From assembly GCA_026390795.1 (NCBI GenBank), contig JAPLFG010000003.1:1178001-1242000 (forward strand): a stretch of 64,000 nt of DNA, written 5' to 3'. Position 1 is the stretch's first letter; every line of letters begins with the position of its first letter. Source of the stretch: Ignavibacteriales bacterium (GTDB lineage: Bacteria > Bacteroidota > Ignavibacteria > Ignavibacteriales > Melioribacteraceae). Positions 10,402-49,285 of this stretch are shown here, in pieces. Position numbers and translations under genes: made by a program. Below the pieces are notes generated by a model. That model was not told the origin of the DNA. It searched no databases and saw only the letters and a list, made by a program, of their open reading frames with translations.

Positions 10402-12621
10402 ATGAAAAAGCATTGGATCGCCTTTGCATCGGTGATTGTGATATCATTTTCTGTACTTGGATGGGTTGGTACAAAAATTTATCAGTTAGCTCCTCCTATA
10501 CCAGATAAAATAGTTACATCCGATGGTCAAACGGTCTTCACAAAAAACGATATTGAAGAAGGTCAAAACATTTGGCAGGCTCTTGGTGGAATGGAAGTCG
10601 GTTCTGTTTGGGGTCATGGCAGTTATGTTGCGCCGGATTGGACAGCGGATTGGCTTCACAGAGAATCAATCTTTGTATTAAATTATTGGGCACAAGCGCA
10701 ATTTGGTAAAGATTATTCCAAACTGGGTAATGAAGATCAAGCCGCTTTAAAATCACGATTACAAAACTTATTTAGAAAAAATACTTTTAATGAGTCTGCC
10801 GGAACTATCACTATTGATCCAGTGCGCGCCAAAGCTATCGAAGATAATACCAAACATTTCAGCGACGTTTTTTCAAACGGCAGGAATGAATATGCCATTA
10901 GGAAAAATTCACTTACCGATCATGAAAAACTCCGCAAGCTAAGCGCGTTTTTCTTCTGGACTTCATGGGCAGCATCAACTAATCGCCCGAATGATGAGAT
11001 CACTTATACAAGTAATTGGCCACATGAAGAGTTAGTGGATAATCATCCAACTGGAGATGCTGTTGTGTGGACGGGTGTTAGTATTATTGTGCTTCTTGCC
11101 GGCATTGGCGGAATGATTTGGTATTACGGATCTCAAGAAAAAGAAAAACCTTATGGTGATGTCCCTAAAGACGATCCTTTACTTGGATCTGTTGTAACTC
11201 CTTCTCAAAAGGCTGTAATAAAATATTTTTGGGTTGTATCGGGATTATTGCTACTCCAAATAGTGATGGGAATAATAACGGCGCACTACGCAGTAGAGGG
11301 CAATGGTTTTTACGGAATTCCTTTATCAAAATATCTTCCGTATACAATAACAAGAACGTGGCATAATCAATTAGGAATTTTTTGGATTGCAACTGCTTGG
11401 CTCGCTTCAGGTCTTTACATCGGTCCAGCAGTAAGCGGTGTGGAACCAAAATATCAAAGACTGGGTGTGAATGTTTTATTCGGCGCTCTTCTTGTTGTTG
11501 TTCTTGGTTCGATGGCTGGCGAATGGCTGAGTGTTATGAACAAAATGTCTGACAGTAATTGGTTCTTGTTTGGTCATAGCGGATATGAATACATTGATCT
11601 TGGAAGATTTTTTCAGGCCGCACTTTTCATTGGTTTACTTCTCTGGTTAGTTTTAATGGTGAGAGCAATAAAACCTGCATTGAAAAAGAAAGATGATCAA
11701 AAACAGATTCTCACATTATTTTTAATTTCCTCTGTAGCAATTGCACTTTTCTACGGTGCCGCACTTATGTATGGTAAACACACAAATTTAACAATTGTCG
11801 AATACTGGCGATGGTGGGTTGTGCATCTTTGGGTTGAAGGATTCTTTGAAGTATTTGCTACAGTTGTAATTGCGTTTTTATTTGCCCGATTAAAATTAAT
11901 CAGCATAAAAACAACAGCTCGCGCAACAGTTCTGGCTTCGACTATATTTTTATCCGGCGGTATAATCGGCACTTTGCATCATTTATATTTCAGCGGCACA
12001 CCAATGATCGCTCTGACTTTGGGAGCCGTATTTAGCGCACTTGAAGTTGTGCCGCTTATTTTTGTTGGTTATGAAGCGTGGGATAACATTCGTATTTCAA
12101 AATCTAAAGAATGGGTTTTAAAATACAAATGGCCTATATATTATTTTGTTGCTGTAGCGTTTTGGAATATGCTGGGCGCGGGATTATTTGGGTTTATGAT
12201 TAATCCACCAATTGCTCTTTACTATATGCAAGGACTGAACACAACTCCGGTACATGCACACGCAGCATTATTCGGTGTTTACGGAATGCTTGGAATCGGT
12301 TTAATGTTGTTTACATTGCGGGCAATAAGACCAGATATTGAATGGAATGAAAAGCCGCTTAAATTTTCGTTCTGGTCAATCAACTTCGGTTTATTCGCAA
12401 TGGTTATTTTCAGTTTACTTCCGGTTGGTTTAATGCAAACATGGGCTTCAGTTCAATATGGTTATTGGTATGCAAGAAGTTCGGAATTTTTACAAACTCC
12501 ATTAATGGATACACTACGATGGACGCGAGCTTTTGGAGATACAATTTTTGCAATCGGTGTAATTGTTTTAGTTTATTTTATAGCAAGATTATCTATTAAG
12601 TTTTTTAAAACAAAAAAATAA
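10402..12621 (+). CDS. norZ: Quinol-dependent nitric-oxide reductase (qNOR)
   Basis: The 739-residue membrane enzyme reduces two NO to N2O using quinol. The N-terminal extension (residues 30-220, with DGQTVFTKNDIEEGQNIWQ) is the cytochrome c-like domain without haem that marks the quinol type. The catalytic subunit has all ligands: H321 for low-spin haem, H475 and E479 (HLWVEGFFE) plus H526/H527 for the FeB site, and H618/H620 for haems b3 and b. About 14 membrane spans are predicted. A GGAAGG ribosome site precedes the start. It ends the denitrification block and is followed by a strong terminator. Its activity would remove NO made by the NirK upstream. Confidence 0.96.
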   Translation: MKKHWIAFASVIVISFSVLGWVGTKIYQLAPPIPDKIVTSDGQTVFTKNDIEEGQNIWQALGGMEVGSVWGHGSYVAPDWTADWLHRESIFVLNYWAQAQFGKDYSKLGNEDQAALKSRLQNLFRKNTFNESAGTITIDPVRAKAIEDNTKHFSDVFSNGRNEYAIRKNSLTDHEKLRKLSAFFFWTSWAASTNRPNDEITYTSNWPHEELVDNHPTGDAVVWTGVSIIVLLAGIGGMIWYYGSQEKEKPYGDVPKDDPLLGSVVTPSQKAVIKYFWVVSGLLLLQIVMGIITAHYAVEGNGFYGIPLSKYLPYTITRTWHNQLGIFWIATAWLASGLYIGPAVSGVEPKYQRLGVNVLFGALLVVVLGSMAGEWLSVMNKMSDSNWFLFGHSGYEYIDLGRFFQAALFIGLLLWLVLMVRAIKPALKKKDDQKQILTLFLISSVAIALFYGAALMYGKHTNLTIVEYWRWWVVHLWVEGFFEVFATVVIAFLFARLKLISIKTTARATVLASTIFLSGGIIGTLHHLYFSGTPMIALTLGAVFSALEVVPLIFVGYEAWDNIRISKSKEWVLKYKWPIYYFVAVAFWNMLGAGLFGFMINPPIALYYMQGLNTTPVHAHAALFGVYGMLGIGLMLFTLRAIRPDIEWNEKPLKFSFWSINFGLFAMVIFSLLPVGLMQTWASVQYGYWYARSSEFLQTPLMDTLRWTRAFGDTIFAIGVIVLVYFIARLSIKFFKTKK

Positions 12622-14121: not shown

Positions 14122-14550
14122 TTATAACGAAGCGATCTTTCTTGTTGTCTTCTCTCTTAAATTTTCTAATGTTTCTTCGCTCAGCATTGTGAAAGCTTCT
14201 TCACGCAACTTGCCCCACTGATGATGTACGGGACACGGTGTTTCATGTGAACAGCCCGGAAAACCAAGTACGCAAGACTTGAAAACATCTAATCCATCGA
14301 TTGCTTCAACAATATCAATTAACTTAATAATACTTGGTTCTTTGGCTAAAAAGAAGCCGCCATTTTTTCCCTTTTTAGATCCAATTATTCCACTGCCGGT
14401 AAGTATTTGCAAAACTTTAGATACAAATTCCTTGGGGACTTTTAATTCACCGGAAATCTCTTCGGCATTATAGATTTTTTTTTCTTTTGTAGATAAGAAA
14501 AGTACTGCCTGCAGACCTAACTCGCACGCTTTGGAAAAGAATACCGTCAT
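14122..14550 (-). CDS. Rrf2-family transcriptional regulator with three-cysteine cluster motif
   Basis: The 142-residue protein has an N-terminal winged helix (ACELGLQAVLFLS, VPKEFVSKVLQIL, KGKNGGFFLA) and a dimerisation helix. C93, C100 and C106 (CVLGFPGC then SHETPC) match the Rrf2 pattern that binds an iron-sulfur cluster, as in NsrR and IscR. Such regulators sense NO, iron-sulfur status or redox. The nearness of NO-producing and NO-removing genes makes it a candidate NsrR-like regulator of the island, but the spacing of its cysteines does not settle which signal it senses. No binding sites could be identified. Confidence 0.9.
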   Translation of the reverse strand: MTVFFSKACELGLQAVLFLSTKEKKIYNAEEISGELKVPKEFVSKVLQILTGSGIIGSKKGKNGGFFLAKEPSIIKLIDIVEAIDGLDVFKSCVLGFPGCSHETPCPVHHQWGKLREEAFTMLSEETLENLREKTTRKIASL

Positions 14551-14740
14551 ATTAGCCTATTGGATGTTTTCTATTTAAAGATAATTATTCTGGCTCTATA
14601 AATCATGCTATTTTATACTTATTTCTGAGCTTTCAAAGATTAAAATTTTTTAATCTTTCTTTAAGGAATTCTTAATACAGACAGAATAAGTTATGACCGT
14701 AAATTTTATTAAATATTTAATAACATAAATGGAGTCTCAA

Positions 14741-15085
14741 ATGAAGAAGTTAGTTGCATTAGTAGTATTGGTTGCCTTTACATCTTTAGCATTCGCTCAA
14801 GCTCAGCCACAAAAGAAATCTGAAGCAACAAAAGTTGCTACAGAAAAGAAAGTAGCCGAAAAGAAAGTAGAGGCTGCTAAACCAGTTGCTGAAAAGAAAG
14901 TTAAAGCAGCAAAAAATGTTGCTGAAAAGAAAGTTGAAGCAGCTGAAATGAAAGCAGAAAAGAAAGTTAAAACAGCTAAAAAAGTTGCTGAAAAGAAAAC
15001 TGAAGCGGCTGAAATGAAAGCAGAAAAGAAAGTCAAAACAGCTAAAAAAGTTGCTGAAAAGAAAGTAGAAGCTGCTAAAAAATAA
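14741..15085 (+). CDS. Exported Lys/Ala/Glu-rich protein of seven 11-residue repeats
   Basis: A signal peptide (MKKLVALVVLVAFTSLAFA) is followed by a short linker and then seven consecutive 11-residue units from residue 38 to the C-terminus at 114, with consensus VAEKKVEAAKK or KAEKKVKTAKK. Every unit has the same length, with no gap. The hydrophobic positions recur at 11-residue spacing, which predicts an undistorted amphipathic helix like group 3 LEA proteins or phasin-like coiled coils. It is strongly basic. The ATG at 14741 is chosen over 14729, because the GGAG at 14731-14734 serves as its ribosome site. It is a single gene with its own terminator. Function is unknown. Confidence 0.85.
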   Translation: MKKLVALVVLVAFTSLAFAQAQPQKKSEATKVATEKKVAEKKVEAAKPVAEKKVKAAKNVAEKKVEAAEMKAEKKVKTAKKVAEKKTEAAEMKAEKKVKTAKKVAEKKVEAAKK

Positions 15086-15104
15086 TTTCGATTAGTATAA
15101 TTAT

Positions 15105-15137
15105 AAAAAAGGAGAGTGAACAACTCTCCTTTTTTAT
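15105..15137 (+). terminator. Strong Rho-independent terminator
   Basis: A 13-bp perfect stem (A6-GGAGAGT paired with ACTCTCC-T6) closes a 5-base loop and runs into a T-tract. It follows the repeat protein by 19 bases. Its symmetric A/T flanks would also stop leftward transcripts. Confidence 0.93.
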
Positions 15138-15169: not shown

Positions 15170-16888
15170 TTATTTTAGACCCGATCGGAATGGATAATAC
15201 TGAGGTTCCCATTGAGCTTTTTTAATTACATTATCATATTCCTCATTACTCAATAATCGTCCCAGTCCAGATTCGCGCGCTTCAATAGCAACAGCTTTGG
15301 CTACATGAAAAGAAACATTTCTAATATTTGTAAGATCCGGAAGAAGCATATTCGCATTGCACTGATCCTCTGTAACCAGATCGCTAATTGCTTTACTCGC
15401 CTTTAAAAACATTTTTGTTGTAATTCTTGTTGATCGGCTGACAAGCGCTCCTAAGCCAACCCCGGGGAAAATGTAAAGGTTGTTGCATTGTGATGTAACA
15501 AATTTCTTTCCGGAGTATTCAAATGGAGCGAATGGACTTCCCATTGCAAATAAAGCTTTACCATTTGTGGCTTTTACGATTTCTTCCGGAGTGCATTCTG
15601 ATTTTGAAGTTGGATTAGACAAAGCAAATATTACAGGTCGTTCATCATTCTTTGCCATTTGACCTAAGATTTCGGAATTGAAAAGTCCGTTGTTTGCTGT
15701 AACACCGATCAAAATTGAAACTTTAGCGTTTCTAATAATATCTAATAAAGAAATTGAATTGGGGGATTCTAATTTCCAATTAGCAACCGATGACTGCTTC
15801 TGAGTAAAACGTTTTTGATTATCGGTTAAACCGGGAGTATCCTCTAATAGAAGTCCGCATACATCATATGCATAAATTTTACTAGCAGCTTCTTCTTTTG
15901 ACAATCCTTCTTCCATCAGCATATTTTGAATGTTTGATGAAATGCCAAAACCCGCTTGTCCCATTCCGACAATCAGAAATTTCTGATCAGAGAATTTTTG
16001 TTTTTTAATTCTCATAGCAGTAATTAAAGCAGAAAGCGCAACGGATCCTGTTCCTTGAATATCATCATTGAAAGAAAGAATTCTATCACGGTATCTTTCA
16101 AGCAGTTTAAATGCTTTATGCTTAGCAAAATCTTCCCACTGAAGCAATGCGTCCGGAAAATTTCGCTTTACACCCAGGACAAACCGTTCAATAAATTCAT
16201 CATACTCTTTTCCTTCAAGTCTCTTCTTTTTGTAACCTAGATAGAGCGGATCATTGAGAAGATTTTCGTTATTTGTTCCTACGTCCAAACTGATCGGAAG
16301 GCAACATGAAGGATGCAATCCTCCGGCAGCTACATACAAATTAATTTTACCAACGGGAATACCCATACCATCGGAACCGAGATCTCCTAAACCAAGAATT
16401 CTTTCGCCATCAGTTACAACGATTAAATAAACATCGGGCAAAGAGATTCCTTGAAATATCTTATCAATGCTTCCGATATTTTCCGGGGTGATATAAATGC
16501 CCCGGTACTCTCTTGTAATGTGACTTAACATTAAGCAGGCTTTTCCTACTGTTGGAGTATAGACAATCGGCAGCATTTCAATCAAATTGTTACAAAGAAG
16601 ATTGTAAAACAACGTCTCGTTTCTGTTAAGCAACCCTTGAAGAAAAATGTACTTTTCAATTTCATCGTGTTTGCGTGTAAACATTTCATAGCTTCTCTGT
16701 CTCTGATCCTCAATGTTTGAGATAGCCGGGCGAATTAATCCTGAAAGTCCTAAATTTAATCGTTCTTCTTCACTGTAAGCAGATGCCTTGTTGAGAAATG
16801 GATCGGTCACTAATTGCTGCCCGTGTAGATAAACTTCCAAATAGTTTTCTCCGGTTAATGCGTCAGTTTTCATCGAATAAGTTTTCAT
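15170..16888 (-). CDS. NAD(P)-dependent malic enzyme
   Basis: This enzyme oxidatively decarboxylates malate to pyruvate. The 572-residue protein has the long-form malic-enzyme layout: N-terminal YTPTVGKACL segment, ILGLGDLGSDGMGIPVGK, the divalent-metal motif LSFNDDIQGTGSVALSAL, the nucleotide motif VGMGQAGFGIS, and FALSNPTSKSECT. GMGQAGFG replaces the common GAGxAG. The ATG at 16888 has GGAGAG 8 bases upstream. A second ATG lies 15 bases inside. It stands alone, with a 328-base gap upstream. Confidence 0.95.
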   Translation of the reverse strand: MKTYSMKTDALTGENYLEVYLHGQQLVTDPFLNKASAYSEEERLNLGLSGLIRPAISNIEDQRQRSYEMFTRKHDEIEKYIFLQGLLNRNETLFYNLLCNNLIEMLPIVYTPTVGKACLMLSHITREYRGIYITPENIGSIDKIFQGISLPDVYLIVVTDGERILGLGDLGSDGMGIPVGKINLYVAAGGLHPSCCLPISLDVGTNNENLLNDPLYLGYKKKRLEGKEYDEFIERFVLGVKRNFPDALLQWEDFAKHKAFKLLERYRDRILSFNDDIQGTGSVALSALITAMRIKKQKFSDQKFLIVGMGQAGFGISSNIQNMLMEEGLSKEEAASKIYAYDVCGLLLEDTPGLTDNQKRFTQKQSSVANWKLESPNSISLLDIIRNAKVSILIGVTANNGLFNSEILGQMAKNDERPVIFALSNPTSKSECTPEEIVKATNGKALFAMGSPFAPFEYSGKKFVTSQCNNLYIFPGVGLGALVSRSTRITTKMFLKASKAISDLVTEDQCNANMLLPDLTNIRNVSFHVAKAVAIEARESGLGRLLSNEEYDNVIKKAQWEPQYYPFRSGLK

Positions 16889-17216
16889 TCACTACTCTCC
16901 ATAAATTGTGCACCGAAATATAAATAGAATAAGAATTGCAGAGAGAAAATTTAGTTGGATAAAAATTTCTTTTTTTTAAATGAAAATTGTGTTTGTCAAA
17001 TAATCCGATATGCAGACGAGATATAGTGTATGAAAACTGTGTTTGAGACTGTCAAATTAGGTACAGGGAGGTATTTTCTTTTCATTCCCGCTTTAATACT
17101 TGAGAATTACAGCTCAAACATTTCACAAATCTATTGATTACGGGCTGATGCCAAAACAACTATTCTAATACTAAAAAATATTTACGGAAATTTTCAAATC
17201 ATTCATTGCTAAGCAA
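16889..17216. other. Non-coding gap between malic enzyme and cstA
   Basis: These 328 bases hold no credible gene. They contain the malic-enzyme promoter region (leftward) and the 3' flank of cstA. The one notable feature is a 16-base direct repeat with one mismatch at 16980-16995 and 17030-17045 (ATGAAAAyTGTGTTTG), exactly 50 bases apart, each followed by a TCAAAT. No terminator hairpin was found after cstA. Confidence 0.5.
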
Positions 17217-18947
17217 TTACTTTTTTACTTTTTTTAAAAAAACATTTACTGCTAAAAACACAACACCAAGAGAAAGCATAAATAGAAAAGCATCCACCGC
17301 CATTAGAATATAATTTCCCTTCTTAACATAATCTAAAAATAAAATTATTAAAGCAGTAATAGTGGTTGCTAGCATAAATAGAGCCGGGAATAAAGCGAAG
17401 AAATATTTCTTTCCTTTCAAAACCAACCAGCTTGCAACTGTTATTAATGCAAGCGCAGCAAGAAGCTGGTTTGCGGTTCCAAAAATCGGCCAAAGTACTG
17501 AGAATGCATTTGAGTACGCAAGAATGAACATGAAAATGACCGTCAACAAAGAATTGAACCAGTAATTTTTAAGAAACGGTTTGGGGCTTTTAAAAAGAAT
17601 TACCCACAACTCTTCAAATAAATATCTGTTCAACCTAACTGCTGCATCAAGAGTTGTAATTACAAATCCTTCCACAAGTAAAATTCCAAAAACCGTTCCA
17701 AGCGAGACAGGTATTCCCAAACCTTGATGAAATAAATTTCCCGCAGCCAAAGAAAAACCTAAAATTGGATTTGATTTGACTAACGGATCTGACGGCCACA
17801 CTATTGATTTGTAATCCACAAAACTCAGCCCAACACCAATTGCGAGTAGAACGCAAATGGCAAGGAGTGATTCCAAAAGCATGGAATTGAAACTAACTTT
17901 ACGGGCATCTGTTTCATTTGTAAGTTGCTTGCATGTTGTTCCGCCTCCTACAAGAGAATGGAATCCGGATATAGCACCGCAAGCGATAGTTATAAACATC
18001 ATCGGCCAAATCATGCCAAGGCTTTGTGCTCCTTCTGCAAAATTAAAATTTGGAAGTGAAACAACTGCGCCGCCGAATCCTACAAATAATAAAGAGATTG
18101 CCATCAAAATAATTCCACCGTAAAGAATTTGTACGTTAATAAAATCTCGCGGTTGAAGAATTACCCAAACCGGGGTTCCGGAAGCAATCAAAACATAGAT
18201 TGAAATTATGATCATCCAATGAAAGGGTTGTAATGAAACCGGGAATTCGATTCCAAGGAAAACCGAAACTATGCAAACAGCGGAAGCGAGCAGGTAAGCA
18301 TATAATGTTTTTATTTCTCTTTTATGAATTAACCAGCCGAGAAACGGCGCACAAATAGTAATAAATATTACAGAAGTTGAAGCAATGCCGCCGATTCTTC
18401 CATATGTAATTCCATTTGCTGTTACGGTTTTTAATATTGTATCGGTCCCTTCAACGCCGAGTTTTGTAAGAGGCCAAAGGGATGTTAAAGAAATTGCCGT
18501 TGCACTCAAAAAAGATGAACAAACAAGAAGCAACATCATAATTGTAAAGGTGATCATTAAATTAAAACCGGTTTTGCCGAGAGTGGTTCTTGCAACTTCC
18601 GCAATCGATTTTCCTTTTTCACGAAGACTGATGAACATAGTTGTAAAATCATGAACCGCTCCGAGAAAAATTCCGCCGACAACAACCCACATCCATGCTG
18701 GAATAAATCCGTATAGAACCGCCATTGTAGGTCCTATAATTGGACCCGCGCCGGCTATGGCGGAAAAATGATGAGCAAATACAACGTAGCGTTTTGTAGG
18801 TACGTAATCCCGTCCATCATTGATTGTTACAGCGGGAGTCGGATGGTTTGCATCTTCTCCTAGAGTTTTTGCAACCCACTTTGCATAAAATTTACTGGCT
18901 AAATAAAATAAAACTATCGGAATTGCTAAAAAGAAAAGTACATTCAT
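17217..18947 (-). CDS. cstA: Carbon starvation protein A family transporter
   Basis: The 576-residue protein has about 14 to 16 hydrophobic spans and the family signatures HHFSAIAGAGPIIGPTMA, GGIFLGAVHDFTTMFIS and GTANQLLAALAL. CstA proteins take up peptides or pyruvate when carbon is short. The ATG at 18947 is preceded by a GAGG ribosome site. The gene is monocistronic and lies in the same direction as malic enzyme, giving a plausible pyruvate link, although no common operon is likely because of the gap. Confidence 0.93.
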   Translation of the reverse strand: MNVLFFLAIPIVLFYLASKFYAKWVAKTLGEDANHPTPAVTINDGRDYVPTKRYVVFAHHFSAIAGAGPIIGPTMAVLYGFIPAWMWVVVGGIFLGAVHDFTTMFISLREKGKSIAEVARTTLGKTGFNLMITFTIMMLLLVCSSFLSATAISLTSLWPLTKLGVEGTDTILKTVTANGITYGRIGGIASTSVIFITICAPFLGWLIHKREIKTLYAYLLASAVCIVSVFLGIEFPVSLQPFHWMIIISIYVLIASGTPVWVILQPRDFINVQILYGGIILMAISLLFVGFGGAVVSLPNFNFAEGAQSLGMIWPMMFITIACGAISGFHSLVGGGTTCKQLTNETDARKVSFNSMLLESLLAICVLLAIGVGLSFVDYKSIVWPSDPLVKSNPILGFSLAAGNLFHQGLGIPVSLGTVFGILLVEGFVITTLDAAVRLNRYLFEELWVILFKSPKPFLKNYWFNSLLTVIFMFILAYSNAFSVLWPIFGTANQLLAALALITVASWLVLKGKKYFFALFPALFMLATTITALIILFLDYVKKGNYILMAVDAFLFMLSLGVVFLAVNVFLKKVKK

Positions 18948-19124
18948 CGCAGCCTCACAAGTGCCATAAAAGAGTTAAAGAAATATAAAAATATTTACAG
19001 TGATTCATAAATATTTTAAAGGAATAATGCGCCGCTTTCTGCTCAATTGGACTTGTTCATTGTATCACATTAAGTGTGGATAAATAATTGCAAACTGGTA
19101 ATAGAGAGGCTTTATTTTTAAACG

Positions 19125-20264
19125 TTATCCGCGTGTTGAGTGGATCATTGCCTTAAGAATACCGGGAAAAGTTTTTATAAAACTGAAGCCGATCTTCCGA
19201 GCATGATTATTTAAGATGATCCTTTGAACAGTTTTTGCTGTCGCAATTCTTTTATTGAAAAGACTCCGCCATTCCTTGATATAAATTTTTTCTGTTTCAA
19301 GGTCATCTAATTTTTTAAATCTCTGTTTATGGAAAACATCCGCCACCAAACTTGCGCTCTCTACAGCCATTCCAATACCGTCTCCCGTCAATGGCGCAAT
19401 AACAGCAGCGGCATCGCCGATCATATAAATACCGTCCTTAACCAGTTCGCGGTTTCCAAAATAAATATTGCCGGTTCCGTAAACCGGCAATTCCTCAAGA
19501 ACTTTATAAATAGAATCGTTGAATAACGATCCGAAACTTTTGTTCGACATCATCAACTTCTTAAGCTGTTCCCTCGGATGAGCCAAACCGTTATTTCTTT
19601 TTTCCAAAAAACAAACCGTCACCTTATTTTCGTCAACGGTATTTATGCCGCAATAAATATCAGCTGATGTAAAAATTTTAATTGTGTCTTTTTCCAAATT
19701 ATGGAATGCTGAGTCGTCAACATGAAATTTGATGCCGTTGAGGTATGATCTGCTGTTCAAAAACTTTCTGTTCAATTTTTTATCAAGAATGTTCTGTCTG
19801 CCGTAAGCGGCAATAACTTTATCTGCCGTAATTTCACTCAAGAATGAGCCATCGTGAATTGTAATGTGGTATTTATCATTACGAAATTTAATTTCTTTAA
19901 CTTCTACCGGTTGAAGAACTTCAATTCCTTTTTCTTTTCCGGATTTGAGCAGAAAGTTATCAAAGCGACCCCGCTTTAATCCATAGCCCGTGAAATTTAA
20001 GTCAGATTTAATAAACTTGCCGTTATCATAAAAAAATTTGAATGAAGTAATAGGATTTGGCTGAAGTAGCAAAAAATTTTCAAACAAATCAAGCCGTTGA
20101 AGATTGGAAGTAACTTCTCTTGATAAGAATTCTCCGCACAATGTTTCTCTTGGAAAAGATTTTTTTTCAATAAGACAGACCTCAAAGCCTAATTTGTTAA
20201 GACTAAGCGCCGCTACTGATCCGGCGGGTCCGCCTCCGATAATTGCAACATCATACTTTTTCAT
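19125..20264 (-). CDS. FAD-dependent oxidoreductase, geranylgeranyl-reductase/PHBH type
   Basis: The N-terminal FAD motif VAIIGGGPAGSVAALSL and later GDAAAVIAPLTGDGIGMAVESA identify a group A flavoprotein monooxygenase or geranylgeranyl-reductase-like enzyme of 379 residues. It lies 6 bases after the methyltransferase stop, in an operon with the type III polyketide synthase. In the srsABC operon of Streptomyces the corresponding flavoprotein hydroxylates alkylresorcinols to quinones. The same role is inferred here, although a reductase role is possible. Confidence 0.88.
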   Translation of the reverse strand: MKKYDVAIIGGGPAGSVAALSLNKLGFEVCLIEKKSFPRETLCGEFLSREVTSNLQRLDLFENFLLLQPNPITSFKFFYDNGKFIKSDLNFTGYGLKRGRFDNFLLKSGKEKGIEVLQPVEVKEIKFRNDKYHITIHDGSFLSEITADKVIAAYGRQNILDKKLNRKFLNSRSYLNGIKFHVDDSAFHNLEKDTIKIFTSADIYCGINTVDENKVTVCFLEKRNNGLAHPREQLKKLMMSNKSFGSLFNDSIYKVLEELPVYGTGNIYFGNRELVKDGIYMIGDAAAVIAPLTGDGIGMAVESASLVADVFHKQRFKKLDDLETEKIYIKEWRSLFNKRIATAKTVQRIILNNHARKIGFSFIKTFPGILKAMIHSTRG

Positions 20265-20270
20265 ATGAAT

Positions 20271-20948
20271 TTATTTGGTTATTACGGCAAGCCATCGAAA
20301 TGCCCACCGGTATCTTATTGAGTAGTTGAAATTTATTTTTGAAAGAATTTTTTTCAATTCATTTTTTATAAATCCTCTTCTAACCGATAAAGGTCCATCG
20401 TTTTGTACCATTTTGCTTCGCGAGAAAAAAAAGGTTAGTAGTTTAATTCCCATAAGAGCAAAGATTGAGCGCTGGAGATCGTTGATAATAATTCCATATC
20501 TGGAAATTTTTAAAAATTTTTCCAGTAACTCATTTATTTCTTCTTCGTTAAAATGATGTAAAAACAGAGAGGCGTGTATAATATCAAAGCTCGAATCTTT
20601 AAAAGGAAGATAAAACACATCACCGCAAATTACGTTCCCAGTTAATTTTTGATGATTTGTGTATCTGCAAACACCTTTATTAATATCAAAACTGCAGATT
20701 TCAACATTTCCATCAAAGAATTTTCCGATTTTAAAATTATCGGAACCGCCTGCACCAACATCTAGAATTTTAATCTGATTGGGGAAAGAGTGTTTATTCA
20801 GAAATAGTTTTAACCCTTTTCTTGTTGTGGAATTTCCTCCAAGAAACTTATTTATGACACTTAATTCTTTCAATGCATAATTAATTCTTTCATCGGTGAT
20901 AGAAAAATCATCCATAATTTCTTTTTGATAACTTCTTTTAAGAAACAT
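20271..20948 (-). CDS. Class I SAM-dependent methyltransferase of the polyketide operon
   Basis: The protein (225 residues from the ATG at 20948) has SAM motif I ILDVGAGGSDNF, the acidic ICSFDIN loop and the FDIIHASLFLHHF motif, typical of the UbiE/Coq5-like superfamily. Its start overlaps the stop of the polyketide synthase by one base (TAATG), so translation is coupled. This fixes the start and rules out the longer in-frame extension to 21008, which would lie within the synthase gene. It probably methylates the phenolic product of the synthase. Confidence 0.9.
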   Translation of the reverse strand: MFLKRSYQKEIMDDFSITDERINYALKELSVINKFLGGNSTTRKGLKLFLNKHSFPNQIKILDVGAGGSDNFKIGKFFDGNVEICSFDINKGVCRYTNHQKLTGNVICGDVFYLPFKDSSFDIIHASLFLHHFNEEEINELLEKFLKISRYGIIINDLQRSIFALMGIKLLTFFFSRSKMVQNDGPLSVRRGFIKNELKKILSKINFNYSIRYRWAFRWLAVITK

Positions 20949-22039
20949 TAAACGCCTTTCATTAAAGCAACTTCCATGCTTAACCCCGGGCCAAAAGCTA
21001 CAGCGCAAATAAAATCGTTACTCTTGATTTCCCTAGTGTTAAATATTTCCTTCATCACAAACAGAATTGATGCCGAAGACATGTTCCCATAGTTCTTTAG
21101 AACATTGCGCGATGGCATCATTTCTTCGTTATCTAATTGAAGTCCGGTTTGTAAGGAATCTAAAATTGCTCTACCGCCCGGATGGAGTGCCCAATGTTTT
21201 ATATCATTTTGTTTTATTCCCCAGTTATCAAAAATCTTTATTAGAGCTGGAACCGCCTCTTCTAAAATTATTTTAGGAAGTTCTGATGAAAGAATCATCT
21301 CAAACCCAAAATCACCAATTTTCCAGCCCATGTAATTAGACGAGTTTTTAAAAAGGATTGAATTTGTTTTAAGAAGTTTCAATTTTGATTTGGACTTCAT
21401 TGATTCAGAGTTAGAAAATAATACGGCTGCGGCTCCGTCGGCAAAGATTAGATTTGCGAGAATATTATCTTTTGTAGCTTCTGTTTGTAAATGAAGACTG
21501 CATAGTTCAACAGAAACTAAAAGTGCATTCCCCTCTTCATTTGAATTATTCATTGCTTCAAGAACGGAATTAAAACCAATTAGCGAAGCGGCGCATCCCA
21601 TAAAGCCGATGTTAGTCCTCTTAATAGTACGCGGTAATTGAAATTTTTCGATTAGGTTATAATCCAATCCGGGTGCAAAGAAACCTGTACATGATATTGT
21701 TATTAATCTGTTAATTTTATCAGGATCGAAGTCTGTACTATCAAAAAGTTTTTTTACTGCATCTTCGGTAAGAGCAATAGACCATTTTTCATATTCTTCC
21801 ATCCGGGTTTTAGTGCTCGGTCGTATGTAATTCCCATCAGAAGAATAAAATTTATTATCTTCTGAATCATCGGCATCCGGTAAAACAAAATATCTTGAAT
21901 CAATTCCCGAATGAGCCGAAGCGGCGTCAATCATTCTTGCCACAGCTGGTCTTCCAGTCATTCTTTTTTTTAATTCTTCAGACACTTTTGATTGAAGAAC
22001 TTTATACGGAGGCGAAGCTGTGGCTATATCGATTAACAT
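20948..22039 (-). CDS. Type III polyketide synthase (alkylresorcinol/alkylpyrone type)
   Basis: The 363-residue enzyme has the chalcone-synthase catalytic triad: C149 in NIGFMGCAAS, H286 in HWALHPGGRAIL and N319 in NYGNMSSAS. Such enzymes extend an acyl-CoA starter with malonyl-CoA to make alkylpyrones or alkylresorcinols. The downstream methyltransferase and flavoprotein point to a methylated, oxidised phenolic lipid, possibly a quinone, placed in membranes. The start ATG at 22039 opens the three-gene operon. A 275-base gap separates it from the divergent response regulator. Confidence 0.95.
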   Translation of the reverse strand: MLIDIATASPPYKVLQSKVSEELKKRMTGRPAVARMIDAASAHSGIDSRYFVLPDADDSEDNKFYSSDGNYIRPSTKTRMEEYEKWSIALTEDAVKKLFDSTDFDPDKINRLITISCTGFFAPGLDYNLIEKFQLPRTIKRTNIGFMGCAASLIGFNSVLEAMNNSNEEGNALLVSVELCSLHLQTEATKDNILANLIFADGAAAVLFSNSESMKSKSKLKLLKTNSILFKNSSNYMGWKIGDFGFEMILSSELPKIILEEAVPALIKIFDNWGIKQNDIKHWALHPGGRAILDSLQTGLQLDNEEMMPSRNVLKNYGNMSSASILFVMKEIFNTREIKSNDFICAVAFGPGLSMEVALMKGV

Positions 22040-22274: not shown

Positions 22275-22299
22275 GGGAGTTTACGAACTCTCCTTTTTT
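22275..22299 (+). terminator. Terminator-like hairpin just upstream of response regulator
   Basis: GGGAGTT pairs with AACTC-T-CC (7 bp with one bulged T) around a TACG tetraloop and is followed by six T. It ends 15 bases before the ATG of the response regulator on the same strand, with no gene upstream on that strand. It may be an attenuator of the two-component operon or the end of an unseen small RNA. Confidence 0.6.
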
Positions 22300-22314
22300 G
22301 TTTATCTTAAGTAT

Positions 22315-22983
22315 ATGAGAATATTATTAGTAGAAGACGAGAAAAAGGTTGCTTCCTTTATAAAGAAAGGATTGGAAGAAGAGCTTTATGAAGTTGACAC
22401 CGCGTTCAACGGGAAGGATGGAGTTGAACTTGCTCTTACAGATGAGTATGATTTGATTATCTCAGACATTATGATGCCGCTGATGAACGGTTTACAACTC
22501 ACAAAGGAATTACGAAAAAATAAAATTATTACTCCAATACTTTTGCTTACTGTAAAAGATGGCACAAAAGATAAAGTTGAAGGACTTGATAGCGGTGCCG
22601 ATGATTATTTATCAAAACCGTTTGCATTCGAAGAATTGACAGCTAGAGTGCGTGCTTTGCTAAGAAGACAAGACTCGCAAAAAGATAATTTGTTAAAAGC
22701 AGATGATCTGAGCATCGACCTAGTAGCCCATAAAGTAACCCGGTCCGATAAAGAGATTATACTAACTCCGAAAGAATACTCAATCCTGGAATATCTTTTA
22801 AGAAATAAGAATAAAATCATTACGCGTACAAAACTTATTGAACATGTATACGATTTTCATTTCGACAGCGGCACAAATGTAATTGATGTTTATATCAATA
22901 AACTCCGGATGAAAGTCGATCATGGATTTGAAAAACAGATGATTCACACTGTACGAGGCGTGGGTTATATTATTAAAGAATAG
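22315..22983 (+). CDS. OmpR-family response regulator
   Basis: The receiver domain has the phosphoacceptor D51 (LIISDIMMP), the acidic pair ED at the start (LLVEDE) and the lysine in YLSKPF. The C-terminal winged helix contains LTPKEYSILEYLL, and its recognition part ends HTVRGVGYIIKE. It most resembles CusR/CopR regulators of metal and envelope stress. The stop is 13 bases before the kinase ATG, so the pair is one operon. A terminator-like hairpin lies directly upstream. Confidence 0.93.
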   Translation: MRILLVEDEKKVASFIKKGLEEELYEVDTAFNGKDGVELALTDEYDLIISDIMMPLMNGLQLTKELRKNKIITPILLLTVKDGTKDKVEGLDSGADDYLSKPFAFEELTARVRALLRRQDSQKDNLLKADDLSIDLVAHKVTRSDKEIILTPKEYSILEYLLRNKNKIITRTKLIEHVYDFHFDSGTNVIDVYINKLRMKVDHGFEKQMIHTVRGVGYIIKE

Positions 22984-22996
22984 TTTAGACTTGGTT

Positions 22997-24421
22997 ATGA
23001 TTACAAAGATTAAATTATTTTTCACTTCAACACGATTCAAAATAACAATCTGGTATTCTTCCCTTTTCTTTTTGATGGAATTTTTACTCGGCATGGTAAT
23101 CTATTTTTACATTTATAGCATTTCCCATATGAATCTGGATTCAAGCCTCAAAACGCAGGCAAATTCTATTCTACGAGTTATCGAAGAAAAACATGTTGAT
23201 TTGGATTCTTTTCAGCCTAGCACCGTATACAAATCTGAAGATGAGTTAATTTGGGATATTGCTTACGATGCAATTGTTTTCAATCGTAGAAACACTTTTA
23301 TAGAAGTTACTACATCGAACAGAATAATTTTCAAGACTGCAAATCTTGGTAAGATTACTTTATCCTTCCCGGATAAGAAAGAAAAAGCCGCTCTGTTCGA
23401 TTATAAGAATATAGATCTATCTGAAGGCGTGGTAAGAGTTTGTCAATTAAAAAGCAAAAAGTATGTTGTTATTGTTGCTTACTCCAAAGAATACATTTCC
23501 CAAACACTCAGCAATCTAAAAGAAATTTATATTCTCATCGCTCCAATATTTTTCCTTATTTCAATTGTAGGCGGCGCTCTTATTTCCGCCAAATCCCTCT
23601 CTCGTATTGATGCAATTATAAGGAAGACAGAAGAAATAACCGGTCAAAATTTAGATGAGACCATTCCTGGCGGTGAATATTTTGATGAGTACGGTAGGTT
23701 AGTGAAAAAAATGAATGAAATGGTTGGGAGAATTAAAACTTCTGTGGATTTTATGAACCAATTCTCTATTTCGGCAGCGCATGAATTAAAAACTCCTTTG
23801 ACAATCTTGCGCGGTGAAATCGAGATTGCTCTTAAGTCTGAAAAAACCCCGCAACAATACATTGAGGTTTTAAAAAGCAATTTCGAAGAGACAATAAGAA
23901 TGATTAAGATCATTGATAATCTTTTCTTTATTTCGAAGAGCGATAACGCAATGATCAATATAGACTATCAAGAAGTCGAGCTTAAATCATTCTTAAGTTC
24001 TTTGTCTAAAAGTTTGGGAATATTAGGTCAAGAAAAAAACATGTCTTTGGTTTTAGAGGACTTGCCAAATTTATATATACAGATTGATATTAATTTGATG
24101 AAACAAGCATTATCCAATATCATCGATAATGCATTCAAGTTTGGAGATGAAAATACGGATGTGACCATTTCGGCAATTGATTTGGGAGAGGAAATTAAAA
24201 TTTGCATCACTAATACCGGAGAAAGAATTCCAGCAGAGGAAGTCGAAAAAATATTTGATCGATTTTATCGTGCAGATATATCTAGAACAAGGAAAACCGG
24301 GGGTGTAGGACTGGGATTGTCTGTGGTGAAATCAATTGTGAATCTTCACAAAGGAACAGTAGAAGTGCAAACAACGAACAATTCATTAACAAAATTAATT
24401 ATATATCTTCCAAAAATCTGA
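22997..24421 (+). CDS. Sensor histidine kinase, CusS-like
   Basis: Two membrane spans (about 16-42 and 180-200) enclose a periplasmic sensor of some 140 residues. A HAMP domain follows, then HisKA with the phosphoacceptor in SAAHELKTPL (H262), and a HATPase domain with NIIDNAFKF and GGVGLGLSVVKSIVNLH. A TTG at 22991 is in frame, but the ATG at 22997 is the more usual start. It pairs with the preceding OmpR-type regulator. The signal is unknown. Metal resistance genes are not adjacent. Confidence 0.92.
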   Translation: MITKIKLFFTSTRFKITIWYSSLFFLMEFLLGMVIYFYIYSISHMNLDSSLKTQANSILRVIEEKHVDLDSFQPSTVYKSEDELIWDIAYDAIVFNRRNTFIEVTTSNRIIFKTANLGKITLSFPDKKEKAALFDYKNIDLSEGVVRVCQLKSKKYVVIVAYSKEYISQTLSNLKEIYILIAPIFFLISIVGGALISAKSLSRIDAIIRKTEEITGQNLDETIPGGEYFDEYGRLVKKMNEMVGRIKTSVDFMNQFSISAAHELKTPLTILRGEIEIALKSEKTPQQYIEVLKSNFEETIRMIKIIDNLFFISKSDNAMINIDYQEVELKSFLSSLSKSLGILGQEKNMSLVLEDLPNLYIQIDINLMKQALSNIIDNAFKFGDENTDVTISAIDLGEEIKICITNTGERIPAEEVEKIFDRFYRADISRTRKTGGVGLGLSVVKSIVNLHKGTVEVQTTNNSLTKLIIYLPKI

Positions 24422-48856: not shown

Positions 48857-49285
48857 ATGAAAAAGTTCGTATCACTGGTGGCTCTCTTCGCAATTCTAAT
48901 TGCATATTCAAACATCTACGCACAAACACAAAACCCAAATCCTCCGGCTCAACATGGCAAGGGATTCGTGGATAAAAACGGAGACGGTTACAACGATAAC
49001 GCGCCCGACCATGACGGAGATGGAATTCCAAATGGAGTTGATCCGGATTATAAAGGTCCAAAACTTCAGAAAAATAAATTTGTTGATTTGAATGGTGACG
49101 GAATTAACGACAATGCAGGCAAAGGTAAACGCGGCGGGAAAAACGGTAAGGGCGGATACGGTCCCGGCAATGGCACCGGCAATAATGGCGTTGGTCCTAA
49201 AAACGGAACCGGTAATGGGGTTGGAACTGGAACTTCTACAGGAACTCATGGAACAAACGGACGCGGACATAGAGGCGGAAAGTAG
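48857..49285 (+). CDS. Small secreted Gly-rich protein with calcium-loop repeats
   Basis: A signal peptide (MKKFVSLVALFAILIAYSNIYA) is followed by three Asp-rich loops: DKNGDGYND, DHDGDGIPNGVD and DLNGDGIND, which match thrombospondin type 3 or EF-hand calcium motifs. The C-terminal half is a Gly/Lys/Asn-rich low-complexity tail ending HRGGK. A related layout occurs at 57604-57939. Ribosome site AGGAG precedes the ATG, and a strong terminator follows. Function is unknown. Confidence 0.85.
   Translation: MKKFVSLVALFAILIAYSNIYAQTQNPNPPAQHGKGFVDKNGDGYNDNAPDHDGDGIPNGVDPDYKGPKLQKNKFVDLNGDGINDNAGKGKRGGKNGKGGYGPGNGTGNNGVGPKNGTGNGVGTGTSTGTHGTNGRGHRGGK

Follow-up and report, generated by a model that had tools for sequence, protein, structure and literature searches.

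The window, a 64,000-nucleotide stretch of an Ignavibacteriales genome (contig JAPLFG010000003.1), carries a gene for a small secreted lysine-rich protein with a conserved region on either side, and the genes for a two-component system. The features are listed here with window coordinates.

14639..14675, + strand: TTAA box, ATTAA-N6-TTAAT-N6-TTAA-N7-TTAA, a putative response-regulator array (alignment of upstream regions, box searches)
14687..14692, + strand: TAAGTT, a conserved TAnnTT after the box and a putative -7/-10 element by its conserved position in the alignment
14731..14734, + strand: GGAG, a putative ribosome-binding site conserved in the upstream-region alignment
14741..15085, + strand: repeat gene for the secreted lysine-rich protein (ORF translation, orthologs), with a signal peptide at residues 1-19, a conserved linker QAQPQKK.EA and seven 11-mers at residues 38-114
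15103..15137, + strand: terminator hairpin, AAAAAAGGAGAGT-GAACA-ACTCTCCTTTTTT, conserved in sequence and locus-specific in nearly all genomes checked
15170..22039, - strand: malic enzyme, CstA, FAD oxidoreductase, methyltransferase and type III polyketide synthase, which separate the repeat gene from the regulator in this lineage
22275..22300, + strand: degenerate second hairpin copy with a T-run directly 5' of the regulator, probably left behind by a gene copy next to the regulator that has since been lost
22315..22983, + strand: OmpR-family response regulator, CusR-like (Pfam domains, family models, comparison with E. coli)
22991..24421, + strand: sensor histidine kinase (Pfam domains, family models, orthologs)

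The repeat gene is translated without stops into 114 amino acids. Its start at 14741 is preceded by GGAG 7-10 bases upstream. An alternative in-frame ATG at 14729 has no comparable GGAG support. The N-terminus is a predicted signal peptide, MKKLVALVVLVAFTSLAFA, with cleavage before QA, in support of the export claimed in the original prediction. Signal peptides were called by eye and with a hydropathy rule. The mature protein contains two Met and neither His nor Cys. In the first 58 codons, the synonymous to non-synonymous changes against two congeners are 15:3 and 14:4. This preponderance of synonymous changes shows that the repeat gene is real and translated.

The original prediction described seven 11-residue units without a gap, and translation confirms them exactly at residues 38-114: VAEKKVEAAKP, VAEKKVKAAKN, VAEKKVEAAEM, KAEKKVKTAKK, VAEKKTEAAEM, KAEKKVKTAKK and VAEKKVEAAKK. 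At lag 11 the mature part has a self-identity of 0.57, whereas 5000 shuffles reach at most 0.46 over all lags from 3 to 29. At lag 22 the self-identity is 0.72, which exceeds both lag 11 and all shuffles. The true unit is thus 22 residues or 66 bases, and the seven 11-mers amount to 3.5 copies of a 22-mer. The predicted 33-base DNA unit is detected by Tandem Repeats Finder (period 33, 7.1 copies, 70%), but the period of 66 bases is stronger (3.5 copies, 85%). The 66-base near-duplicate is also present, with 61 of 66 positions identical between 14942-15007 and 15008-15073.

The repeat protein is found in most members of its genus. A scan of a contig collection with the single protein returned only three close relatives, named Bacteroidetes MAGs and a Melioribacter sp. 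Among relatives, the signal peptide and the linker (AQAQPQKK) are nearly unchanged, while the body changes. Six congeners, the window included, have an 11- or 22-mer body. Proteins of the same genus with an equal signal peptide, promoter and gene position consist of KAEKAP 6-mers in G006 and of 14-mers in G009, and the body in G011 and G002 is a short K/A/E/P-rich tract. Remoter relatives have 7-, 12- or 14-mers or are aperiodic, and G039 carries an 11-mer of its own. Repeat counts, proposed earlier as a check, do differ between species. All relatives are lysine-rich with a net charge of +9 to +25, and it is the repeat period that differs. Cys is absent in 27 of 27 proteins compared, and the relatives have 0-5 His. 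L002, a second match within this genome (E=0.07), was not taken as a relative, and two weak matches by composition (L011 and L012) were excluded, as the box is absent there.

The amphipathic helix suggested earlier is borne out in this clade, where the hydrophobic moment is 0.90 against 0.34 +/- 0.14 in shuffles. Values well above shuffles are mostly confined to the 11-mer clade, and in most other relatives the moment is not significant. Together with the exact 11-mer period, this is the ground for reading the protein as an exported counterpart of group 3 LEA proteins (LEA_4), whose 11-residue periodicity and K/A/E-rich amphipathic helix it shares, the helix forming upon drying or on membranes. 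The AlphaFold model is a single helix from 35 to 113, in which the ten-residue mean pLDDT rises from 63 to 91 after residue 50. The overall mean pLDDT is 69, and the model is weak evidence for such a composition. AlphaFold tends to render K/E/A-rich repeats as helices. The window protein differs from LEA_4 in being exported, and it matches no Pfam family at E<=1, LEA families included. Outside the six congeners, most orthologs that share its promoter and position have periods of 6, 7, 12 or 14 or none, and no significant moment. There is thus no ground for the 11-mer as a conserved LEA-type unit, and we regard an LEA-like protein as quite improbable.

Judged from these comparisons, the 11-mer repeat is one clade's filling of a fast-changing, positively charged secreted protein. 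The original prediction called an exported LEA-like helix unusual in this lineage. The protein is not confined to this genome: the family of secreted lysine-rich proteins is class-wide and tied to a two-component system. The accompanying suggestion of a periplasmic stress protein is plausible. Rather than being of the drought type, the protein probably serves in envelope stress and is controlled by a circuit of its own.

In most relatives, the lysine-rich gene lies directly upstream of the genes for the OmpR-type regulator and the kinase, on the same strand and at a distance of 13-160 bases. In the window, the regulator and kinase genes (22315-24421) are displaced 7 kb from the repeat gene, and the lysine-rich gene is also away from the two-component system in G056 and G052. 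G010 has two gene copies, one at the malic-enzyme position and the other (L025) beside the regulator. These positions are most simply explained by a duplication of the gene, an insertion, and the loss of the copy next to the regulator. Two other arrangements were observed. In G039, two box-driven lysine-rich genes (L107 and L110) flank the regulator gene, the second between regulator and kinase. In G042 (L069), the box, the lysine-rich gene and the response regulator are followed by a peptidoglycan glycosyltransferase-like gene instead of the kinase. The type III polyketide synthase, methyltransferase and FAD oxidoreductase at 19125-22039 of the window make up a small biosynthetic cluster.

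With a single exception, the family loci examined carry the hairpin GGAGAG(T)...(A)CTCTCC with a T-run, kept in sequence as well as in shape. It is located between the gene and the regulator, or behind the gene where the gene has moved. In a scan of 15 genomes, nearly every match fell at a family locus, with one extra site in G006. All Rfam matches of the hairpin are sub-threshold.

Upstream of the gene, alignment shows that the box block is much better conserved than its surroundings. The box consists of four TTAA half-sites 10-11 bp apart and lies 65 bp 5' of the start codon. It contains TTTAAT-N5-TTTAAG-N5-CTTAAT (14649-14676), the only exact YTTAAK-N5 triple in the genome. The half-site spacing fits head-to-tail OmpR/PhoB binding (PMC4117788), and YTTAAK is the repeat half-site of PmrA (PMC10927774).

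The box alone was used as the query, so that no selection was made on the protein. A looser form of it has 27 sites in 57 related genomes, against 2 for a control pattern. At 24 of the 27 sites, a signal-peptide protein with 20-47% K and a net charge of +9 to +25 is encoded 58-95 bp downstream. One of the other three sites precedes a TPR-like gene that stands just upstream of a lysine-rich gene, and two, both in G047 (L095 and L109), precede other secreted proteins, one of them with BON-like repeats. The G047 sites suggest a wider envelope regulon in that genome. The box also precedes lysine-rich genes away from the two-component system, in the window and at L091 and L094.

At the phylum level, 7 sites were found in 395 genomes against 0 for the control, and at the class level 9 sites against 6. 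Two of the new class-level sites, in G450 and G431 of a further family, are both followed by a secreted K-rich gene, a regulator and a kinase. At the third (L116, in G473), the box lies 53 bp before the start codon of a P-type ATPase gene in a genome without the kinase ortholog, and it may reflect chance or another regulator. The ATPase resembles magnesium/calcium transporters. A search of the own genome for other regulon members, allowing one mismatch, gave 8 matches against 5 for the control. Three of them were inspected and are intragenic or have no sensible downstream gene.

With the promoter and the hairpin better conserved than the protein body, the ORF might be a fast-evolving low-complexity sequence of little function riding on them, while a short regulatory RNA would be the actual product. 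The 15:3 and 14:4 ratios, the retention of a signal peptide and a net positive charge across the 24 box-linked genes, and the lack of any Rfam family at threshold all stand against this, and we consider it very improbable.

The regulator and the kinase have the layout of an OmpR/PhoB-type two-component system in Pfam, with receiver and winged-helix output domains in the former and HAMP-HisKA-HATPase in the latter, HAMP scoring below cut-off. The regulator is identical to E. coli CusR at 108 of 222 residues, and to BasR at 81. The kinase has an N-terminal transmembrane helix and an outer sensor region of ~130 residues before HAMP, HisKA and HATPase. It is closest to the heavy-metal CusS/SilS subfamily, under the cut-off of that model. 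The sensor region is well conserved among orthologs. A fold search with a weak model (pLDDT 66) gave matches to CusS, HprS and HK853 that are dominated by the cytoplasmic core, and nothing firm on the sensor domain.

The family models raise the question of a periplasmic metal sponge, which would bind the metal sensed by the kinase, like SilE or PcoE. The best models for the regulator and the kinase are those of the copper/silver heavy-metal subfamilies, but both score below their curated cut-offs: TIGR01387, the best model for the regulator type (copper/silver), at 260.3 against 279.2, and TIGR01386 at 245.6 against 292.55. As in silE-silRS and pcoE, a small disordered periplasmic protein is encoded beside a heavy-metal-type system, and SilE becomes helical upon Ag+ binding (PMC5008109). 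HHKK motifs occur in some relatives. SilE, however, acts through His and Met motifs (PMC5008109), of which the lysine-rich family has few or none; the mature window protein contains two Met but lacks His and Cys, and its relatives have 0-5 His and no Cys. Because His and Cys are scarce, SilE-type metal binding is less likely, and we hold the sponge to be improbable.

Among the 57 genomes, a kinase ortholog (E<=1e-100) and the box are both present in 22, the kinase only in 2, the box only in 1 and neither in 32. Fisher's test gives p=1.7e-12, a value that overstates the evidence as the genomes are related. One of the kinase-only genomes, G006, has a box with one extra base of spacing, and the sole box-only genome is 66% complete.

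Genes for small secreted proteins adjacent to OmpR-type two-component systems are known in cpxP-cpxRA and ygiW-qseBC, and DbfQ, CpxP and YgiW-type proteins are folded and conserved. The lysine-rich family differs in that only charge and composition are conserved. The arrangement is also like that of dbfQ-dbfRS (PMC12714742), and in V. cholerae the small periplasmic protein encoded beside dbfRS controls that system (PMC12714742). The main rival to a target gene is an accessory regulator, in which the small protein would bind the sensor domain of the kinase and form a feedback loop, as in CpxP/CpxA or DbfQ/DbfS. The adjacency and co-occurrence of the gene with the kinase fit this reading. Against it, the body, with a period from 6 to 14 or none, is too variable for a specific interface with the well-conserved sensor region, and the gene is apart from the system in this lineage, G056 and G052. 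We consider the accessory role unlikely, if less so than the sponge.

It is rather probable, in our judgement, that the small secreted polycation is the main, dedicated target of the CusRS-like system and protects the envelope as Asr does in E. coli, regulator binding and protective function being read from the promoter and by analogy. E. coli Asr is an intrinsically disordered periplasmic chaperone that supports outer-membrane integrity and is ~1000-fold induced at pH 4.4 (PMC10746267). It is controlled by RstA and PhoB (PMC4117788). Asr (b1597) has a signal peptide, 21% K, 28% A, no Cys and a net charge of +14. Side by side, both proteins are small, K/A-rich, Cys-free and cationic, and both have a signal peptide. 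Asr has imperfect repeats, and the OmpR-family regulators RstA and PhoB act on it through tandem boxes, much as proposed here. It differs in having more H/P/Q and less E, and its gene is not beside its regulators. The Pfam profile of Asr matches neither the window protein nor eight relatives. By analogy, the repeat protein would be most like Asr in its working, and homology is not claimed. Matches to Wag31 and histone H1-like models in NCBIfam are compositional and far below cut-offs.

Under the proposed regulation, an envelope signal would activate the kinase (22991-24421), and the phosphorylated regulator (22315-22983) would bind head-to-tail on the box, the last half-site of which may overlap the -35 region, and activate transcription. 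The hairpin would halt most transcripts after the small gene, with slight readthrough into regulator and kinase in the ancestral order, so that the small protein would be expressed at a high level and the two-component system at a low one. Once exported, the protein would act by bulk charge, not fold, binding and shielding anionic or unfolding envelope material. Since it is mostly composition and charge that would count, the body would be free to drift and to expand through repeat slippage. The seven 11-mers would then be one slippage expansion, which here could also fold into a long amphipathic helix. On the other side, the shared low-complexity composition could also reflect weak constraint, and the repeat gene no longer adjoins the two-component system in this genome.

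The comparison with PmrA/BasR extends to the box, whose TTTAAT-N5-TTTAAG-N5-CTTAAT (14649-14676) equals the direct-repeat half-site YTTAAK (PMC10927774). The differences are that the regulator here is nearer CusR (108 identities) than BasR (81), and that there are three to four half-sites. More tentatively, and with some doubt, we suggest a class-wide envelope defence, in which a bulk polycation free to drift and expand is secreted instead of lipid A modification or a folded chaperone. A CusR-like regulator would read PmrA-like TTAA arrays, and the disordered protein would be a functional counterpart of PmrAB-type charge neutralisation.

A literature search on lysine-rich secreted proteins with two-component systems in Ignavibacteria found nothing relevant, and the module of box, secreted polycation and two-component system appears to be undescribed. 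It offers a concrete, testable regulon for a poorly studied class: one box, one two-component system and one main target. Within the family, the repeat period varies against a constant promoter, export and charge, a natural series that can test bulk composition against sequence or fold in a secreted disordered protein. A further lesson is that drift in a charge-constrained family can, as a by-product, leave one genome with a tidy repeat.

Two other loci were observed in the window. A nitric oxide reductase with a fused cytochrome c-like domain (NorB type) is encoded at 10402-12621, near an Rrf2 regulator at 14122-14550. The secreted product of 48857-49285 has a glycine-rich tail and DxNxDG repeats that resemble calcium-binding ones.
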